A stretch of 33,867 bases of DNA from the IMG/VR virus record IMGVR_UViG_3300007559_000014, positions 1-33,867 of that record. The stretch is one strand, 5' to 3'. The translations under genes were made by a program, and so were the position numbers. Numbering within the stretch: the stretch's first letter is position 1; the number at the start of each line of letters is the position of its first letter. Positions 6,967-33,628 of the stretch are shown here, in pieces. Under the pieces are notes generated by a model. It was given only the letters and a program-made list of their open reading frames with translations, was not told the origin of the DNA and made no database searches. The DNA comes from a virus.

Positions 6967-7469
6967 TTAGAGATTCTATAATAGCATTAGCTGAACAGGA
7001 AATGGGTACGCTTGAAAGTCCTCCCGAATCGAATGTGGTAAAATATAATGACTGGTATTATGTTGAAGGGCATACCTATTTTAAAAATAGTAAACCTTTT
7101 GCGTGGTGTGGCACTTTTGTAAGTTATGTTTATCACTTTGCAGGTTGGACGTTACCAAAGATTGATACTGAAATAGGATTTCATTATGTGCCTACATTAT
7201 ACCATAAGGCTAAAGCTAAGAGGTGGGAAACTGATAATCCTATTCAGGGCGATATAGTTATTTTTGATTTCAAACAAGATAAAGTAATTGATCACGTTGG
7301 AATATTTCATTCGTGGTTAGAGAAGGGAAAAAGATTTACTTGTATCGAGGGAAATACTTCGGCAGGTGAAAAAGGTAGCCAGTCCAATGGCGGAGGAGTT
7401 TTTAAAAGGGTTCGGAATATGAGAGATGTAATTCAATTTGTTAACTTATTAGATAACTATAAATTATGA
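6963..7469 (+). CDS. CHAP-domain endolysin
   Basis: A 168-residue protein with the CHAP (cysteine, histidine-dependent amidohydrolase/peptidase) pattern: AWCGTFVSYVY with the probable nucleophile Cys49, GDIVIFDF (about 96-103), DHVGIF with His111, and IEGNTS (about 128-133) supplying the third polar residue. It would cleave peptidoglycan cross-bridges or the amide bond to release phage. There is no signal peptide, so release probably depends on a holin. It is directly followed by a spanin-like gene (ATGA overlap), which completes a lysis cassette for a host with an outer membrane. Confidence 0.8.
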   Translation: MIRDSIIALAEQEMGTLESPPESNVVKYNDWYYVEGHTYFKNSKPFAWCGTFVSYVYHFAGWTLPKIDTEIGFHYVPTLYHKAKAKRWETDNPIQGDIVIFDFKQDKVIDHVGIFHSWLEKGKRFTCIEGNTSAGEKGSQSNGGGVFKRVRNMRDVIQFVNLLDNYKL

Positions 7470-7954
7470 GATTAAAATTTTTTAACGATAATGATTTGCT
7501 GATAATAGCCTTTTGGTTGCTTATCACTTTTTTATTATTAAGTACTATTGGATGCGTAAGTAAAAAAAAATGTTTAGATAAATTTCCTCCTACTATTGAA
7601 ACTATCACTAATCATACTACTGAGATTATAAGACGTGATTCACTTATTCAGGGTGCAAGTGTAACGAATACTATTTATAAAGATTCGATTGTATTGATGC
7701 CAGTAAACAAGTGGCACTATATTAAGGACACTAACGGAATAGCTTCTCTAAGGTGGTATAAAGATGCCTACGGTAATATTCAGATGCAATGTGACGCTAA
7801 TAGTAGATTAGTGGAGTTGGTTAGGAAGGAAATGAAAGTAAAGGATAGCACTAGTAGTAAAACGATTGTAGAGAAAAAGGTAGTACCATTTTGGGCATTA
7901 TTAGTTATTGCTGTATTATGTTTGTTATTATTAAAAAAATATATAAATTTGTAA
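7466..7954 (+). CDS. u-spanin-like lysis protein
   Basis: A 162-residue protein with a hydrophobic N-terminal segment (about 11-29) ending in LSTIGC, a loose lipobox with Cys30 as the lipidated residue, then a polar region with several Thr and Asn, and a C-terminal membrane helix (about residues 137-157, PFWALLVIAVLCLLLLKKY). An outer-membrane lipid anchor plus an inner-membrane helix is the layout of unimolecular spanins, which fuse the two membranes in the last step of lysis of Gram-negative hosts. The lipobox is not canonical; if not lipidated, the protein would be a two-helix membrane protein instead. It is the last gene before a terminator. Confidence 0.6.
   Translation: MRLKFFNDNDLLIIAFWLLITFLLLSTIGCVSKKKCLDKFPPTIETITNHTTEIIRRDSLIQGASVTNTIYKDSIVLMPVNKWHYIKDTNGIASLRWYKDAYGNIQMQCDANSRLVELVRKEMKVKDSTSSKTIVEKKVVPFWALLVIAVLCLLLLKKYINL
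7921..7951 (+). promoter_or_regulatory. Consensus-like promoter just before terminator
   Basis: TTTG at 7921-7924 and TAAATTTG at 7944-7951 are 19 bases apart, an exact match to the Bacteroidota TTTG-N19-TAnnTTTG pattern. It overlaps the last codons of the spanin-like gene. Transcription would start near 7958, only about 25 bases before the hairpin at 7982. It could be a chance match in AT-rich coding DNA. Confidence 0.35.
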
Positions 7955-20462: not shown

Positions 20463-20927
20463 ATGGCACAGGAAGGCAGAGACGAAAACGGTAAGTTTAT
20501 ACATAAGAACTTATGGCACTTAATGAGGTCTAGGATAGGGCAACCTAAGAAGTTCCTAACTCCTGAGGAACTTGCATCAAAAGGATTAGATTACTTTGAG
20601 TGGGTAGCTGAAACAAAACAAAAGATAACTTTTGCAGGACTTAGATTATACGTTGGATTTAATCGTACAGATTGGTCGAGATATAAGAATGATTATGCCG
20701 ATTACTGTGACACAATGAATCATATCGAATTATTATTAGAAGCTGAATGGGAGGGTAAACTTGGATGGGCAGGTTCAACACAGGGTGCTATCTTTTGGTT
20801 AAAAAATAAAGCGGGTTGGAAAGATGAGATTACTCAAAACCAAAATCAAACAGTTACAACGGTTCAACCTTCGATTATTTCAGGGAGTCCTAAATTAGCT
20901 AATGACGAAAAACAAATAGATGTTTAA
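20463..20927 (+). CDS. terS: Terminase small subunit
   Basis: A 154-residue protein placed directly before the large subunit and overlapping it by 8 bases. It has KKFLTPEELASKGLDYFEWV, a helix-turn-helix-like middle (ITFAGLRLYVGFNRTDWSRY) and GAIFWLKNKAGWKDE near 117-131, which is the usual end pattern of small terminase subunits of the P22 gp3-like/Terminase_6-type groups. It recognises phage DNA ends and recruits the motor. Assignment combines pattern and position. Confidence 0.75.
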   Translation: MAQEGRDENGKFIHKNLWHLMRSRIGQPKKFLTPEELASKGLDYFEWVAETKQKITFAGLRLYVGFNRTDWSRYKNDYADYCDTMNHIELLLEAEWEGKLGWAGSTQGAIFWLKNKAGWKDEITQNQNQTVTTVQPSIISGSPKLANDEKQIDV

Positions 20928-22077
20928 ATGCTCAACCGTATATTTAGCAAACTGGGAGGCTCAGGAAGATACGATAGTAAATCAAGGCGGTACATCGAGC
21001 GGAAAAACCTATTCCATTATACAGGTTTTGTTTTCCATTGCAATATCTGAGAAGGCTACAATTACAATAGTAGGGCAGGATATACCTAACCTTAAAGTAG
21101 GAGCGTTGAGAGATGCCTTAGAAATATATGAAAACTCACCCGAATTAAAAGGGTTAGTTACTTCATATAATAAGACAGACCGTATATTCGAGTTTGCCTC
21201 AGGTTCGATAATGGAGTTTAAATCTTATGGCAATCCTCAGGATGCGAAGAGTGGTAAAAGAGATTACTGTTTTCTAAATGAGGCTAACGGTATTCCTTTC
21301 GATATTTATACCGAGTTGGCACTCCGTACTCGTAAAAGAGTATTCCTAGACTATAACCCTAATAACGAATTTTGGGTGCATCAAAAGGTAATAGGCAGAC
21401 CGAATACTAAACTAATAATCTCAGACCATAGGCATAACCCATTTCTATCTGAGAAGGTAAGAGAAAAAATAGAAGGGTTAAAAGAAATTGACCTAGACCT
21501 ATGGAAAGTTTACGCTCGTGGTATGACTGGTAAGATAGAGGGATTAATATTCCGTAATTGGCAATATTGCGATGAGATACCTAATGATGCTAAGTTAGTG
21601 GCTTTCGGTTTAGACTTTGGGTTTACAAATGATCCAACGGCTATACTTTCAGTTTATAAACAGGATGGCGAACTATGGATTAATGAGGAGGTATATTCAA
21701 GTGGGTTAACTAATCCTGACATTCATAATCTAATTAAAGACGTGGTTAAAAATAATGAAGTAATAGGGGATAGTGCAGAGCCTAAGTCTATCGAAGAGTT
21801 GAGAAGGTTAGGACTTGCAATATACGGAGCAAAGAAAGGGGCTGATAGTATTCGTACTTCTATCGACATTCTAAAACGATATAAGTTAAATGTAACAAGG
21901 TCATCTACTAATTTAGCTAAAGAGTTAAATAGTTATAAATGGAAAACAGATAAGCATACAGGTACATCTATTAATGAGCCTGTGGACTTTCTTAATCATG
22001 GAATTGATGCGTTAAGGTATGTTGCATTAAATAAATTAAATAGTAATGGAGATTTTGACTACTCATTTAGATTATAA
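20920..22077 (+). CDS. terL: Terminase large subunit
   Basis: A 385-residue ATPase-nuclease of the PBSX/Terminase_3 kind. Walker A is NQGGTSSGKT (21-30), the Walker B-like acidic strand YCFLNEAN (116-123) carries the catalytic Glu121. The RNase H-like nuclease half has LDFGFTNDP (Asp232), GDSAEPKS (Asp284) and DFLNHGIDALRY (Asp363). It pumps DNA into the head and cuts it. It is on the short side but both domains are complete. The type of end generated cannot be told, though the genome's circular assembly fits headful or cos packaging. Confidence 0.9.
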   Translation: MFKCSTVYLANWEAQEDTIVNQGGTSSGKTYSIIQVLFSIAISEKATITIVGQDIPNLKVGALRDALEIYENSPELKGLVTSYNKTDRIFEFASGSIMEFKSYGNPQDAKSGKRDYCFLNEANGIPFDIYTELALRTRKRVFLDYNPNNEFWVHQKVIGRPNTKLIISDHRHNPFLSEKVREKIEGLKEIDLDLWKVYARGMTGKIEGLIFRNWQYCDEIPNDAKLVAFGLDFGFTNDPTAILSVYKQDGELWINEEVYSSGLTNPDIHNLIKDVVKNNEVIGDSAEPKSIEELRRLGLAIYGAKKGADSIRTSIDILKRYKLNVTRSSTNLAKELNSYKWKTDKHTGTSINEPVDFLNHGIDALRYVALNKLNSNGDFDYSFRL

Positions 22078-22129
22078 ATTTAATGATGGATTTGCAGATG
22101 AGTTATCTGTTTGGACTAAAAAAGAAACT

Positions 22130-22801
22130 ATGAAAAAAATAATAATACCTGAATCGTGGAGCGAAGTAACCATATCACAATTACGTGAGATACTCCAGTT
22201 AGAAGCAACTAATAAAATGAAGTACGCTATTGAGGTGGCATCTATACTTTCAGATACCGATACCGAAACAATAAGAGGTTTAAGTGCAACATACCTAAAT
22301 GAAGTAAACAAGTCTTTAGGGTTTATTCACGAGTTACCTAAGTTGGGTTACTCAAATAACTTTACTGTTGACGGTCAAATGTACGCTGTCAACGATTTTA
22401 AATACTTTACTCTAGGGCAATGGATAGATATTGAGATGCTCGGTAAGGATTGGAAATCTAACCTTCATAAAATATTAGCGGTTATTTACCTACCTGCTAC
22501 GGAAGTAAAAGGTAAGTTAGTTATTGATAAGTATGATGGCAAAATTGACGATAGGGCGGAGGTAATGGATAAGATGAAAGTATCGGATGTGTATAGTGCA
22601 TCGGTTTTTTTTTCGAATTTCGGGCAGGAACTTACCGTCGCTTCTTCCCTGAAAGCTATGAACAAGCAGATAAAGGAACTGAGGAAGAACTTACCATTGA
22701 GGAAAAGGATAATGAACAATGGAACTGGTATAAAGTTTTGGATAGGCTCTCAGGTGAATCGTTTGTCGATATGGAGAAGGTGGCGGAGAAAAACGCTTTA
22801 G
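22130..22801 (+). CDS. Tail assembly chaperone-like protein, zero-frame product (gpG-like)
   Basis: The zero-frame protein is 223 residues from ATG 22130 (MKKIIIPESWSEV). An in-frame ATG at 22046 lies inside the terminase gene and is rejected. Residues 1-155 are compact alpha/beta (VTISQLREILQLEATNKM, DFKYFTLGQWIDIEMLGK, KILAVIYLPATEVKG). At 22605-22613 lie nine T's in the form G TTT TTT TTT CG, giving a perfect slippery heptamer T_TTT_TTT (22606-22612). Beyond it, the zero frame continues 62 codons with an unusual Lys/Arg-rich end. The gene precedes the tail genes, where the lambda G/GT pair sits. Confidence 0.65.
   Translation: MKKIIIPESWSEVTISQLREILQLEATNKMKYAIEVASILSDTDTETIRGLSATYLNEVNKSLGFIHELPKLGYSNNFTVDGQMYAVNDFKYFTLGQWIDIEMLGKDWKSNLHKILAVIYLPATEVKGKLVIDKYDGKIDDRAEVMDKMKVSDVYSASVFFSNFGQELTVASSLKAMNKQIKELRKNLPLRKRIMNNGTGIKFWIGSQVNRLSIWRRWRRKTL
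22606..22612 (+). other. Slippery heptamer T_TTT_TTT for -1 frameshift
   Basis: In the zero frame the codons are GTT TTT TTT TCG, so the heptamer X_XXY_YYZ is T_TTT_TTT. The downstream -1 frame is open for 90 codons. I did not find a clearly strong hairpin just after it by eye; a weak structure could exist. Confidence 0.7.
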
Positions 22802-22884
22802 CCTGTTTTCAACATTTAATATACTTAAAGTATAAAGATGCGCTCAAAAATAGACAGATTAAAGCCACTCAAAGATTATCTTGA
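22612..22884 (+). CDS. -1 frameshift extension of tail assembly chaperone (gpGT-like)
   Basis: In the -1 frame the sequence is open from just after a TAG at 22594 to TGA at 22882-22884, with no ATG before the middle of it. It encodes about 90 residues: ESYEQADKGTEEELTIEEKD, then NEQWNWYKVLDRLSGESF and VAEKNALACFQHLIYLKYKD, far more protein-like than the zero-frame tail. A -1 slip at T_TTT_TTT (22606-22612) would fuse it to the first 161 residues, giving a product of about 251 residues. It overlaps the start of the next gene by 47 bases. RNA polymerase slippage on the T run is an alternative mechanism. Confidence 0.75.
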   Translation, partial: FEFRAGTYRRFFPESYEQADKGTEEELTIEEKDNEQWNWYKVLDRLSGESFVDMEKVAEKNALACFQHLIYLKYKDALKNRQIKATQRLS

Positions 22885-29020: not shown

Positions 29021-30889
29021 ATGGCAAAGACAATAATAATAGATACAGAGGTTAAAGGTGTTGACCAAGCATTACAGGATATTGACAAAATTGATAATGC
29101 TGTCGATGGGGTTAATCAAAAAAATATTTCGCCTAAGTTTGATAGCGCTAAGACTGAAAAAAGTTTAGAGAACTTACAAAAGAAGGGTGAACAGATTGAG
29201 AAGGTAGGACAAGGTATAGCGGGAGGCTTCGCATTAGCTACTGGTGTAGTAGGTTCGTTTGGCTCTGAGTTAGGATATAGTACAGAAGAGATAGAAAATG
29301 CACAGGCTAAGGCTAGTTCTTTTATCGGAATACTTGTATCTATTAAACCAGTAGTAGAGGGTGTTGGTTCAGGATTTAAGTTATTAGGTTCTATTTTAAA
29401 AACTAATCCATTAATATTATTAGCTACAATTATAGGTGGTATCATTGTATCGTTCTTAGATATGGGAGCGATAGTAGATGGGATTAAAAAAGGGTTTAAG
29501 GTTTTTGGAGATGCTGTTTCTGCTACTTTCGATTTCATTGTCGATGCTGCTATGTTTGCTATTGATATGTATACTCAGTTTTTAGATATTGTTACTTTTG
29601 GATTATTTGATATTAATAGTTCTTATAAAGGATATGTAAAATCTGTTGAGAACGCAAGTGCAGCGGAAAAGAAAAGAGAGGAAAATGCAATAAAGGAAAG
29701 GGCTTTAATTGTTCAAAATATACTTGAATTAAAAAAGAAAATAAAGATATTAGATGAGGAAATAAAAATAATAGAGAAAACTAAAGCAGCGGTAACAGCT
29801 AGATATGACCAAGAGATAAGATTGGCACAAGCATCGGGTAAAGAAACCTATGCTATTGAGAAGCAAAAACTAGCAGACCTTATTACTTTTACTGAAAAAG
29901 AAATACAGTTAAAATTAAAAAAATATCTATTTGAAAAACAACTTCAAGGAGAGGAAAGTAAATTTACTAAAAGTTTGTTTGGAGAAAATATGGCTTTTGT
30001 TCTAGCGGATCAACAGGCTAACATTAAAGCAAATAATGTAAAAGTGAGAGAACTTGCCGAGTTAAGAAAGCAAGTTAATGGATTTAAAGATGACGATGCT
30101 GTACTAGATGCAACTAGAAATAAAGAAAATTATGATAAATGGAAAACTTTAGAGGAGGAAAAAACAGCTAAAGCAAAAGAAGAGGCTGAAAAAAGGAAAG
30201 CGTGGGAAGACCAAGTTAATAGTGAGTTAAAAGTAATTGAAAGTAAAAAGTCAGATAATTATTTAGTAGGTCAACAAAGCGTAGCCGATGCTACTAAAAA
30301 TGTATGGGCTTCTATGTATGGTGAAGTAGCTAGGACAGGTAATGAAACAGCCACAAAAGATTTAGCTAATCAAAAGGAAGTTAATAATGCTAAGGTTCAA
30401 ATGCTATCGGATACATTAGGCACTCTCTCATCACTAACTGAATTATTTGGTAAAAAAAGTGAGGCTAGTGCTAAAAAAGCATTTCAGGTAAACAAAGCTA
30501 TAAGTATAGCGGATGCAATTATTAAAACATATCAAGGTGCTAATGCAATATTTGCTACTGCTGCTGCTAATCCTAAATCTGTTTTATTTCCTGCTCAACC
30601 TTTTATAGCGGCAGGTTTAGCTATTGCGGGTGGTTTCGCAAACGTGGCTAAAATTTCAGCAACTCAATTTGGTGGCGGTGCTTCTGCTTCAGGAGGTGGT
30701 GGTGGAGATAGTGGCTTCGGTTCTGGGCCATCATTACCAACCGTAGATACTTCATCTACTCCATTTCAATTTCCAACAGTAGGTGAAAATAACCCACAAT
30801 CTAACCAACAAACATTTGTATCCGTTACTGAAATAAATAACGTTAACAATAGGGTGCAGGTGGCTGAGGCTAACGCAACCTTTGGTTAA
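29021..30889 (+). CDS. Tape measure protein
   Basis: A 622-residue protein with the tape measure hallmarks: a helical, Lys/Glu/Gln-rich body with a coiled coil (about 215-410), hydrophobic segments at about 128-150 (NPLILLATIIGGIIVSFL) and near 520-545, repeated Gly/Ala stretches (GIAGGFALATGVVG) and a Gly-rich tail (GGGASASGGGGGDSGFGSG). Tape measures set tail length at about 0.15 nm per residue, so a tail of about 90 nm is expected if all of it is helical. The long rigid tail supports a siphovirus morphology. The C-terminal end is Gln- and Asn-rich. Confidence 0.75.
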   Translation: MAKTIIIDTEVKGVDQALQDIDKIDNAVDGVNQKNISPKFDSAKTEKSLENLQKKGEQIEKVGQGIAGGFALATGVVGSFGSELGYSTEEIENAQAKASSFIGILVSIKPVVEGVGSGFKLLGSILKTNPLILLATIIGGIIVSFLDMGAIVDGIKKGFKVFGDAVSATFDFIVDAAMFAIDMYTQFLDIVTFGLFDINSSYKGYVKSVENASAAEKKREENAIKERALIVQNILELKKKIKILDEEIKIIEKTKAAVTARYDQEIRLAQASGKETYAIEKQKLADLITFTEKEIQLKLKKYLFEKQLQGEESKFTKSLFGENMAFVLADQQANIKANNVKVRELAELRKQVNGFKDDDAVLDATRNKENYDKWKTLEEEKTAKAKEEAEKRKAWEDQVNSELKVIESKKSDNYLVGQQSVADATKNVWASMYGEVARTGNETATKDLANQKEVNNAKVQMLSDTLGTLSSLTELFGKKSEASAKKAFQVNKAISIADAIIKTYQGANAIFATAAANPKSVLFPAQPFIAAGLAIAGGFANVAKISATQFGGGASASGGGGGDSGFGSGPSLPTVDTSSTPFQFPTVGENNPQSNQQTFVSVTEINNVNNRVQVAEANATFG

Positions 30890-33064: not shown

Positions 33065-33580
33065 ATGGCTTGTACATTATTAACAGGTGGCGTTACCATC
33101 GCCTGTTCACCTAACATAGGTGGAATTAAAAAGGCTTACATTACTGATTTCGTAAATGTAGAAAATGGATTCACAGAAGCGGCGGGAGTAATTTCTGCTG
33201 TGGCTATTGATTCAGGAGAAAACTATTACGAGTTTGAGTTTAACAAAAATACTTCATTCTATACCGAGAGCGAAGCTAACAGTATTGAGAATGGAACTAA
33301 TTTTAAGACTCAGGTTATTACTTTAGTTATCCCTCGTAGAGAAGTAGCAAAAAGAAACGTTATTCGTTTACTAGCACAAAAAAGACTATCTATTATTGTT
33401 AAAGACCAAAACGGTTTAAACTGGGTTTTGGGAATGACAAATGGAATGGACTTAACTACTAACGAAGGTGGCTCAGGAACTGCTAAAGCGGATATGAATG
33501 GATATACATTAACCTTCACAGGAGAAGAGTCTGAAATGGCTTCTACTGTATCAGATGCTATCTTAGCGACATTAATTTAA
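33065..33580 (+). CDS. Probable major tail (tube) protein
   Basis: A 171-residue beta-rich protein with IGGIKKAYITDFVNVENG in the first 35 residues, FNKNTSFYTESEANSIENGT (about 58-77), REVAKRNVIRLLAQKRLSII and an end of WVLGMTNGMDLTT then ADMNGYTLTFTGEE. The GGIK-x-x-x-I opening and D-x-NGYTLTF ending are of the sort seen in tail tube proteins of Bacteroidota phages following the capsid gene. Length suits a tube subunit. A head decoration protein is a possible alternative. It is flanked by two terminators. Confidence 0.65.
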   Translation: MACTLLTGGVTIACSPNIGGIKKAYITDFVNVENGFTEAAGVISAVAIDSGENYYEFEFNKNTSFYTESEANSIENGTNFKTQVITLVIPRREVAKRNVIRLLAQKRLSIIVKDQNGLNWVLGMTNGMDLTTNEGGSGTAKADMNGYTLTFTGEESEMASTVSDAILATLI

Positions 33581-33600
33581 TCTAAATAAAATTTAGGGAG

Positions 33601-33628
33601 AGCCATCTGTAAAGGTGGCTTTTTTTTT
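33601..33628 (+). terminator. Rho-independent terminator after tail-tube gene
   Basis: AGCCATC (33601-33607) pairs with GGTGGCT (33614-33620), with one wobble, around TGTAAA, followed by nine T's. It ends three bases before the ATG at 33632. It is a near copy of the hairpin at 7982-8012 (both within GAGAGCCA...AAGGTGGCTTTT). Confidence 0.75.

Follow-up and report, generated by a model that had tools for sequence, protein, structure and literature searches.

A conserved nine-T run beside the terminase genes of Bacteroidota phages and its probable -1 recoding product

The slip site and its reading frames

The window, that is, the entire 33,867-nucleotide stretch of viral DNA that we analysed, comes from a virus that infects Bacteroidota-type bacteria. 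Downstream of its terminase genes lies a reading frame that is crossed by a run of nine T's (T9; 0-frame codons GTT TTT TTT TCG) and accompanied by a second, open frame at -1. The features concerned are as follows.

20463 to 20927, plus strand: small terminase gene (PHROG 606, E=1.7e-20)
20920 to 22077, plus strand: large terminase gene, conserved as the neighbour on the 5' side (PHROG 5653, E=5e-34)
22046 to 22801, plus strand: 0-frame gene, 251 aa, overlapping the 3' end of the large terminase gene
22130 to 22612, plus strand: N-domain, 161 aa, ending ...SVFF and common to both products (alignment A5 of 16 divergent members; AlphaFold2 mean pLDDT 90.5)
22605 to 22613, plus strand: T9 slippage run, read from the sequence and conserved in relatives
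22606 to 22612, plus strand: slippery heptamer T_TTT_TTT, in frame (Phe-Phe); all 35 clusters described below have an in-frame T_TTT_TTY
22612 to 22884, plus strand: -1 frame C-domain, 90 codons plus TGA, the second half of the putative fusion, with a conserved W-G-W/Y motif and C-terminal helix
22613 to 22801, plus strand: alternative 0-frame extension, 62 codons plus stop, dual-coding with the -1 frame and open for longer than simulated
22618 to 22654, plus strand: possible weak stem-loop 5 nt 3' of the heptamer (-10.4 kcal/mol; z -0.1 to -1.5, without statistical support)

A first-pass annotation of the window had drawn attention to the T run and its zero-frame heptamer, both of which were confirmed when the sequence was re-read. 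The site thus has the in-frame X_XXY_YYZ pattern looked for in -1 programmed ribosomal frameshifting, here as T_TTT_TTT, and also the homopolymer looked for in programmed transcriptional slippage. In the -1 frame a TAG at 22594-22596 is followed by open sequence from 22597 to a TGA at 22882-22884, which provides 90 codons past the slip point and overlaps at its end the next gene, beginning at 22838. The first start codons in this frame are TTG at 22738 and ATG at 22771, so that the annotation was right to call the frame open without an early ATG; it was equally right that gene callers would overlook these 90 codons. Public annotations also miss the fusion. The +1 frame, by comparison, reaches a stop within 13 codons, and the 0-frame extension ends at the TAG at 22799-22801. 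An in-frame ATG at 22130 starts the conserved domain and may be the true start of the 22046-22801 gene; the start is not the same in three relatives (L010, L012 and L014).

We propose that programmed -1 recoding at U9 very probably decodes 22046-22884 into a 0-frame product and a fusion. Most products would end in the 0 frame at 22801 and consist of the N-domain with a 0-frame tail, while a fraction would shift to the -1 frame, giving a fusion of 279 aa (251 aa if translation starts at 22130) in which the N-domain is joined to a helical C-domain. The shift could arise through -1 slippage of tRNA-Phe on U_UUU_UUU, through RNA polymerase adding one U, or through both.

T9 occurs twice in the window, at the slip site and at a terminator-like intergenic site at 33620. 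In the latter region (33600-33628), 3' of the 33065-33580 gene, a GC-rich inverted repeat (GAGCCATCTGTAAAGGTGGC) precedes the T9, an arrangement that resembles an intrinsic terminator. An A9 at 7562-7570, in frame (Lys-Lys-Lys) within an ORF at 7466-7954, is possibly a second slippage-prone site.

Conservation of the slip site and of both frames

A search of IMG/VR returned 15 loci that are 89-99% alike, 13 of which span the slip site, and in all 13 the T9 and both frames are kept. Among these 13 close relatives, variable positions 5' of the T run fall predominantly on third positions of the 0 frame (of 140 such positions 90 vary, against 24 at position 1 and 12 at position 2); 3' of the run they fall on third positions of the -1 frame, of which 16 of 63 vary, with 7 each at positions 1 and 2. 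The phase of selection switches at the T run. A more distant homologue, L024, shares 26% identity over the N-domain, has G-T9 at the equivalent place and is followed by a related -1 domain. When its -1 domain was used as a query, 80 of 543 confirmed loci were kept for examination, and each of these 80 further relatives has T9 or T10.

Further lineages were added through relatives of the terminase, and genomes were searched with a profile (A5) built from 16 divergent N-domains. Of 395 genomes sampled from the phylum of G001 (Bacteroidota, as assigned from two seed genomes), 8 carry the N-domain gene according to this profile. Of 400 genomes drawn from the order of G216, 92 do, usually in a single copy, and a second search of that order gave identical results; prophages with the gene are thus very common there. 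A re-scan covering viral contigs and prophages condensed 285 loci into 233 distinct proteins and these, at 45% identity, into 35 clusters. Despite their divergence the 233 proteins share the N-domain, a Phe-Phe codon pair at the slip site and a C-domain that is open in the -1 frame, with an in-frame T_TTT_TTY in every counted member. The alignment of homologues that the first-pass annotation had proposed as a check therefore finds slip site and both frames conserved, with few exceptions: Flavobacterium phage 6H has a T_TTT_TTC but no -1 ORF and was rejected as a recoding case, and one homologue (L017) is without a slip site. In another homologue (L233) the N- and C-domain are encoded in a single frame (C-domain E=8.8e-8), as they are, more weakly, in L258.

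Direct searches with the window's own sequence reached less far. Neither its 0-frame and -1 products nor the -1 domain of L137 matched GenBank phages by tblastn, where only the L024 N-domain reached the cultured Nonlabens phages P12024L/S; megablast of 19 kb gave no phage match, and a genome scan with the window's -1 domain as query gave no confirmed relative. Among the papers searched, none was found to describe this slip site.

Selection also acts on the frame that the fusion leaves behind. Given the -1 protein, the 0-frame tail is open for 62 codons in the window's clade against 26 in simulations (P about 0.008), and in the L024 clade for 83-87 codons against 0 simulated, a length that no simulation reached. 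The 0-frame extension is thus under selection in its own right, and because it stays open for longer than simulated, the 0-frame tail and the -1 frame are probably both expressed.

Could the layout arise without recoding? One might imagine that the C-domain is made separately through internal initiation, which is how the second ORF is annotated in P12024L/S. Yet the first -1 starts, TTG 22738 and ATG 22771, fall inside the conserved domain, and -1 conservation reaches right up to the T run; we therefore rejected this explanation as very unlikely. A sequencing error in the homopolymer, a pseudogene or phase variation by replication slippage is more improbable still, to the point of being negligible. 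T9 runs are indeed prone to errors and mutation, but an identical T9 is present in contigs of many samples and in cultured phages, and shorter or interrupted runs (T7 followed by A, T6C) keep the same -1 layout. Programmed -1 recoding into a fusion, by contrast, is well supported by comparison: close relatives retain the T9 together with both frames, the 35 clusters retain the Phe-Phe slip codons and the open -1 C-domain, and P12024L/S carry the arrangement as well.

Run length and the slipping agent

Counted over distinct proteins, the junction run is T9 in 156, T7 in 55, T10 in 11, T8 in 7 and T6C in 4, whereas 1.09 Mb of flanking sequence contains 84 runs of T7, 15 of T8, 3 of T9 and 1 of T10. 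T9 at this one site is therefore not a matter of chance. At least nine T's are held in 31 of the 35 clusters, nearly always exactly nine, with T8 rare and the codon phase of the run varying; exactly nine T's dominate in three codon phases, including a lineage of 58-60% GC. Considering only T_TTT_TTT clusters, 31 of 34 have at least nine T's where codon usage, given the in-frame heptamer, predicts 22% (binomial P about 8e-18, a value that overstates the evidence since clusters are treated as independent). The flanking codons behave in a compensatory manner: where the codon before the Phe pair supplies two T's, the next codon has a T and then a non-T in 16 of 16 clusters, and where it supplies one, TT opens the next codon in 11 of the 14 clusters; the contrast has a Fisher P=7e-6, and the three exceptions are exact T7 runs followed by A. 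This pattern should be read keeping in mind that the base 3' of the heptamer belongs to a Leu or Phe codon of the -1 product as well, so that T is favoured at this position. The tree of one prophage clade requires no fewer than six changes between T7, T8 and T9, and 13 diverged prophages that form a T9 clade nested in a T7 clade have stayed T9. A single site that occurs with T6C, T7, T8, T9 and T10 amounts to a natural experiment on ribosomal versus transcriptional slippage.

Downstream structures that stimulate -1 ribosomal frameshifting are common but not obligatory. In the window, the stem-loop at 22618-22654 yielded no covariation. For the T9 class, neither upstream nor downstream structure gave a signal as a general stimulator (downstream mean z -0.28; control windows -0.05 and 0.06). 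A strong hairpin is found about 6 nt downstream of the site in the T_TTT_TTC lineage represented by L179 (z -4.2, about -21 kcal/mol), and since this is a classic arrangement, ribosomal slippage is favoured there. The four loci L179, L184, L186 and L188, each combining a T_TTT_TTC site with a strong downstream hairpin, would serve well as positive controls wherever ribosomal frameshifting is studied in this family.

How do these observations bear on the agent? Were the ribosome acting by itself, tRNA-Phe would re-pair at -1 on U_UUU_UUU, with any T's beyond the heptamer being by-products of the protein sequence or mild enhancers. This is quite conceivable, if short of probable: the in-frame T_TTT_TTY is the sole element common to all clusters, all 55 T7 proteins carry the run in the exact phase needed, the L179 lineage has its strong hairpin, and the window has a weak stem 5 nt downstream. 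It does not readily account, however, for the excess of runs of at least nine over codon-usage expectation, the rarity of T8, flanking codons that co-vary to total nine T's or a T9 class devoid of downstream structure. Alternatively, RNA polymerase, on an A9 template with U9 RNA, would add a U in some transcripts, the resulting U10 mRNA then being read normally into the -1 frame. Here the dominance of exactly nine T's in three codon phases and at 58-60% GC, the concentration of T9 at one site in 156 distinct proteins against three such runs in the flanks, and the persistence of T9 in the 13-prophage clade are all favourable, and we hold polymerase slippage to be a real possibility with a somewhat less than even chance. 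Against it, dependence on polymerase slippage is unlikely in homologues with T7 or T6C, and the T's after the Phe codons are partly demanded by Leu/Phe in the -1 product.

Nine A's or T's is the published threshold for transcriptional slippage in many bacteria (PMC1088944), and homologous dnaX genes use either agent, ribosomal or transcriptional, according to the passage of PMC3711429 that cites Larsen 2000. A run of at least nine with compensating flanks is not required by a ribosomal heptamer and matches the 9T threshold; of the programmed -1 ribosomal frameshift put forward in the first-pass annotation, the conservation evidence thus upholds the programmed -1 recoding, with the ribosome as one candidate agent. 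We suggest a polymerase contribution because run length is held at nine while all recoded homologues keep the heptamer, and polymerase slippage, added or alternative, would best explain a run held at nine whichever of three codon phases it takes, even where the lineage is GC-rich. Chances are about even that it adds to the shift in the window's T9 class. For lineages with T7 or T6C the ribosomal heptamer probably suffices. That the fusion is made mainly by RNA-polymerase slippage at T9, with T7/T6C relatives using ribosomal frameshifting (one family, two agents), is a more tentative suggestion.

Product, gene order and known systems

What might the products do? The N-domain model is confident and matches uncharacterised phage proteins, including one of P12024S; in BFVD it weakly matches a single annotated "tail assembly chaperone" (E=0.028), and no PDB fold match was found for it, although this does not prove the fold to be new. 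The C-domain was modelled with low confidence (pLDDT 69), and its BFVD matches are not taken as proof. Pfam gave no match for the window protein; one of 16 members matches PF10109 weakly (E=0.067) and one member matches PHROG 166, "tail protein" (E=7e-5). From its architecture, the most likely role, and a reasonably probable one, is that of a tail-assembly-chaperone-like morphogenesis protein. A G/GT-type chaperone binds the tape measure and major tail proteins and is absent from the virion. Of the tail assembly chaperone fusion proposed at first pass, the -1 fusion of two conserved domains stands, and the chaperone identity is suggested by architecture and weak matches.

Across surveyed members the gene usually lies directly 3' of the large terminase gene, and the window shares the order small terminase, large terminase, recoded gene with prophage L354, where the N-domain gene again comes after the terminase genes. 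The tape measure gene (29021-30889) lies 6 kb downstream of the recoded gene, with a likely major tail protein gene (33065-33580) farther on. One surveyed record, L018 (PP511318.1, Dulem virus 31), has the terminase, portal and sheath genes of a tailed phage yet carries a Microviridae taxonomy line. Taken broadly, a missed fusion gene adjoins the terminase in hundreds of Bacteroidota phages and prophages, part of the family being dual-coding across 60-90 codons.

The obvious comparison is with tail assembly chaperones made by -1 frameshifting, phage lambda G/GT among them (Xu, Hendrix and Duda 2004; reviewed in PMC5009743). Shared are two overlapping frames, the -1 direction, an N-domain product alongside an N-C fusion, this layout being conserved in homologues, and a location in a morphogenesis operon. 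The lambda-like placement envisaged at first pass is correct in that the gene precedes the tail genes, but it directly follows the large terminase gene instead of lying between those for the major tail protein and the tape measure. The window family differs further: its site is a U run and not the heptamer of lambda, its 0-frame extension of 60-90 codons is under selection, and no sequence homology is detectable. With Thermus dnaX (A9) and the genes in which transcriptional slippage occurs at 9A/9T, most of them in IS elements (Baranov 2005, PMC1088944), the window gene shares a nine-A/T homopolymer mid-gene and an open shifted frame; unlike them, its family resides in phage structural operons and always has an in-frame ribosomal heptamer. 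Also comparable are the cultured Nonlabens phages P12024L/S (genes P12024L_40/_41), which have an equivalent site (CTT TTT TTT TAT in P12024L), synteny and a homologous N-domain (30% identity to L024), and differ in that the gene is annotated as two separate hypothetical proteins.
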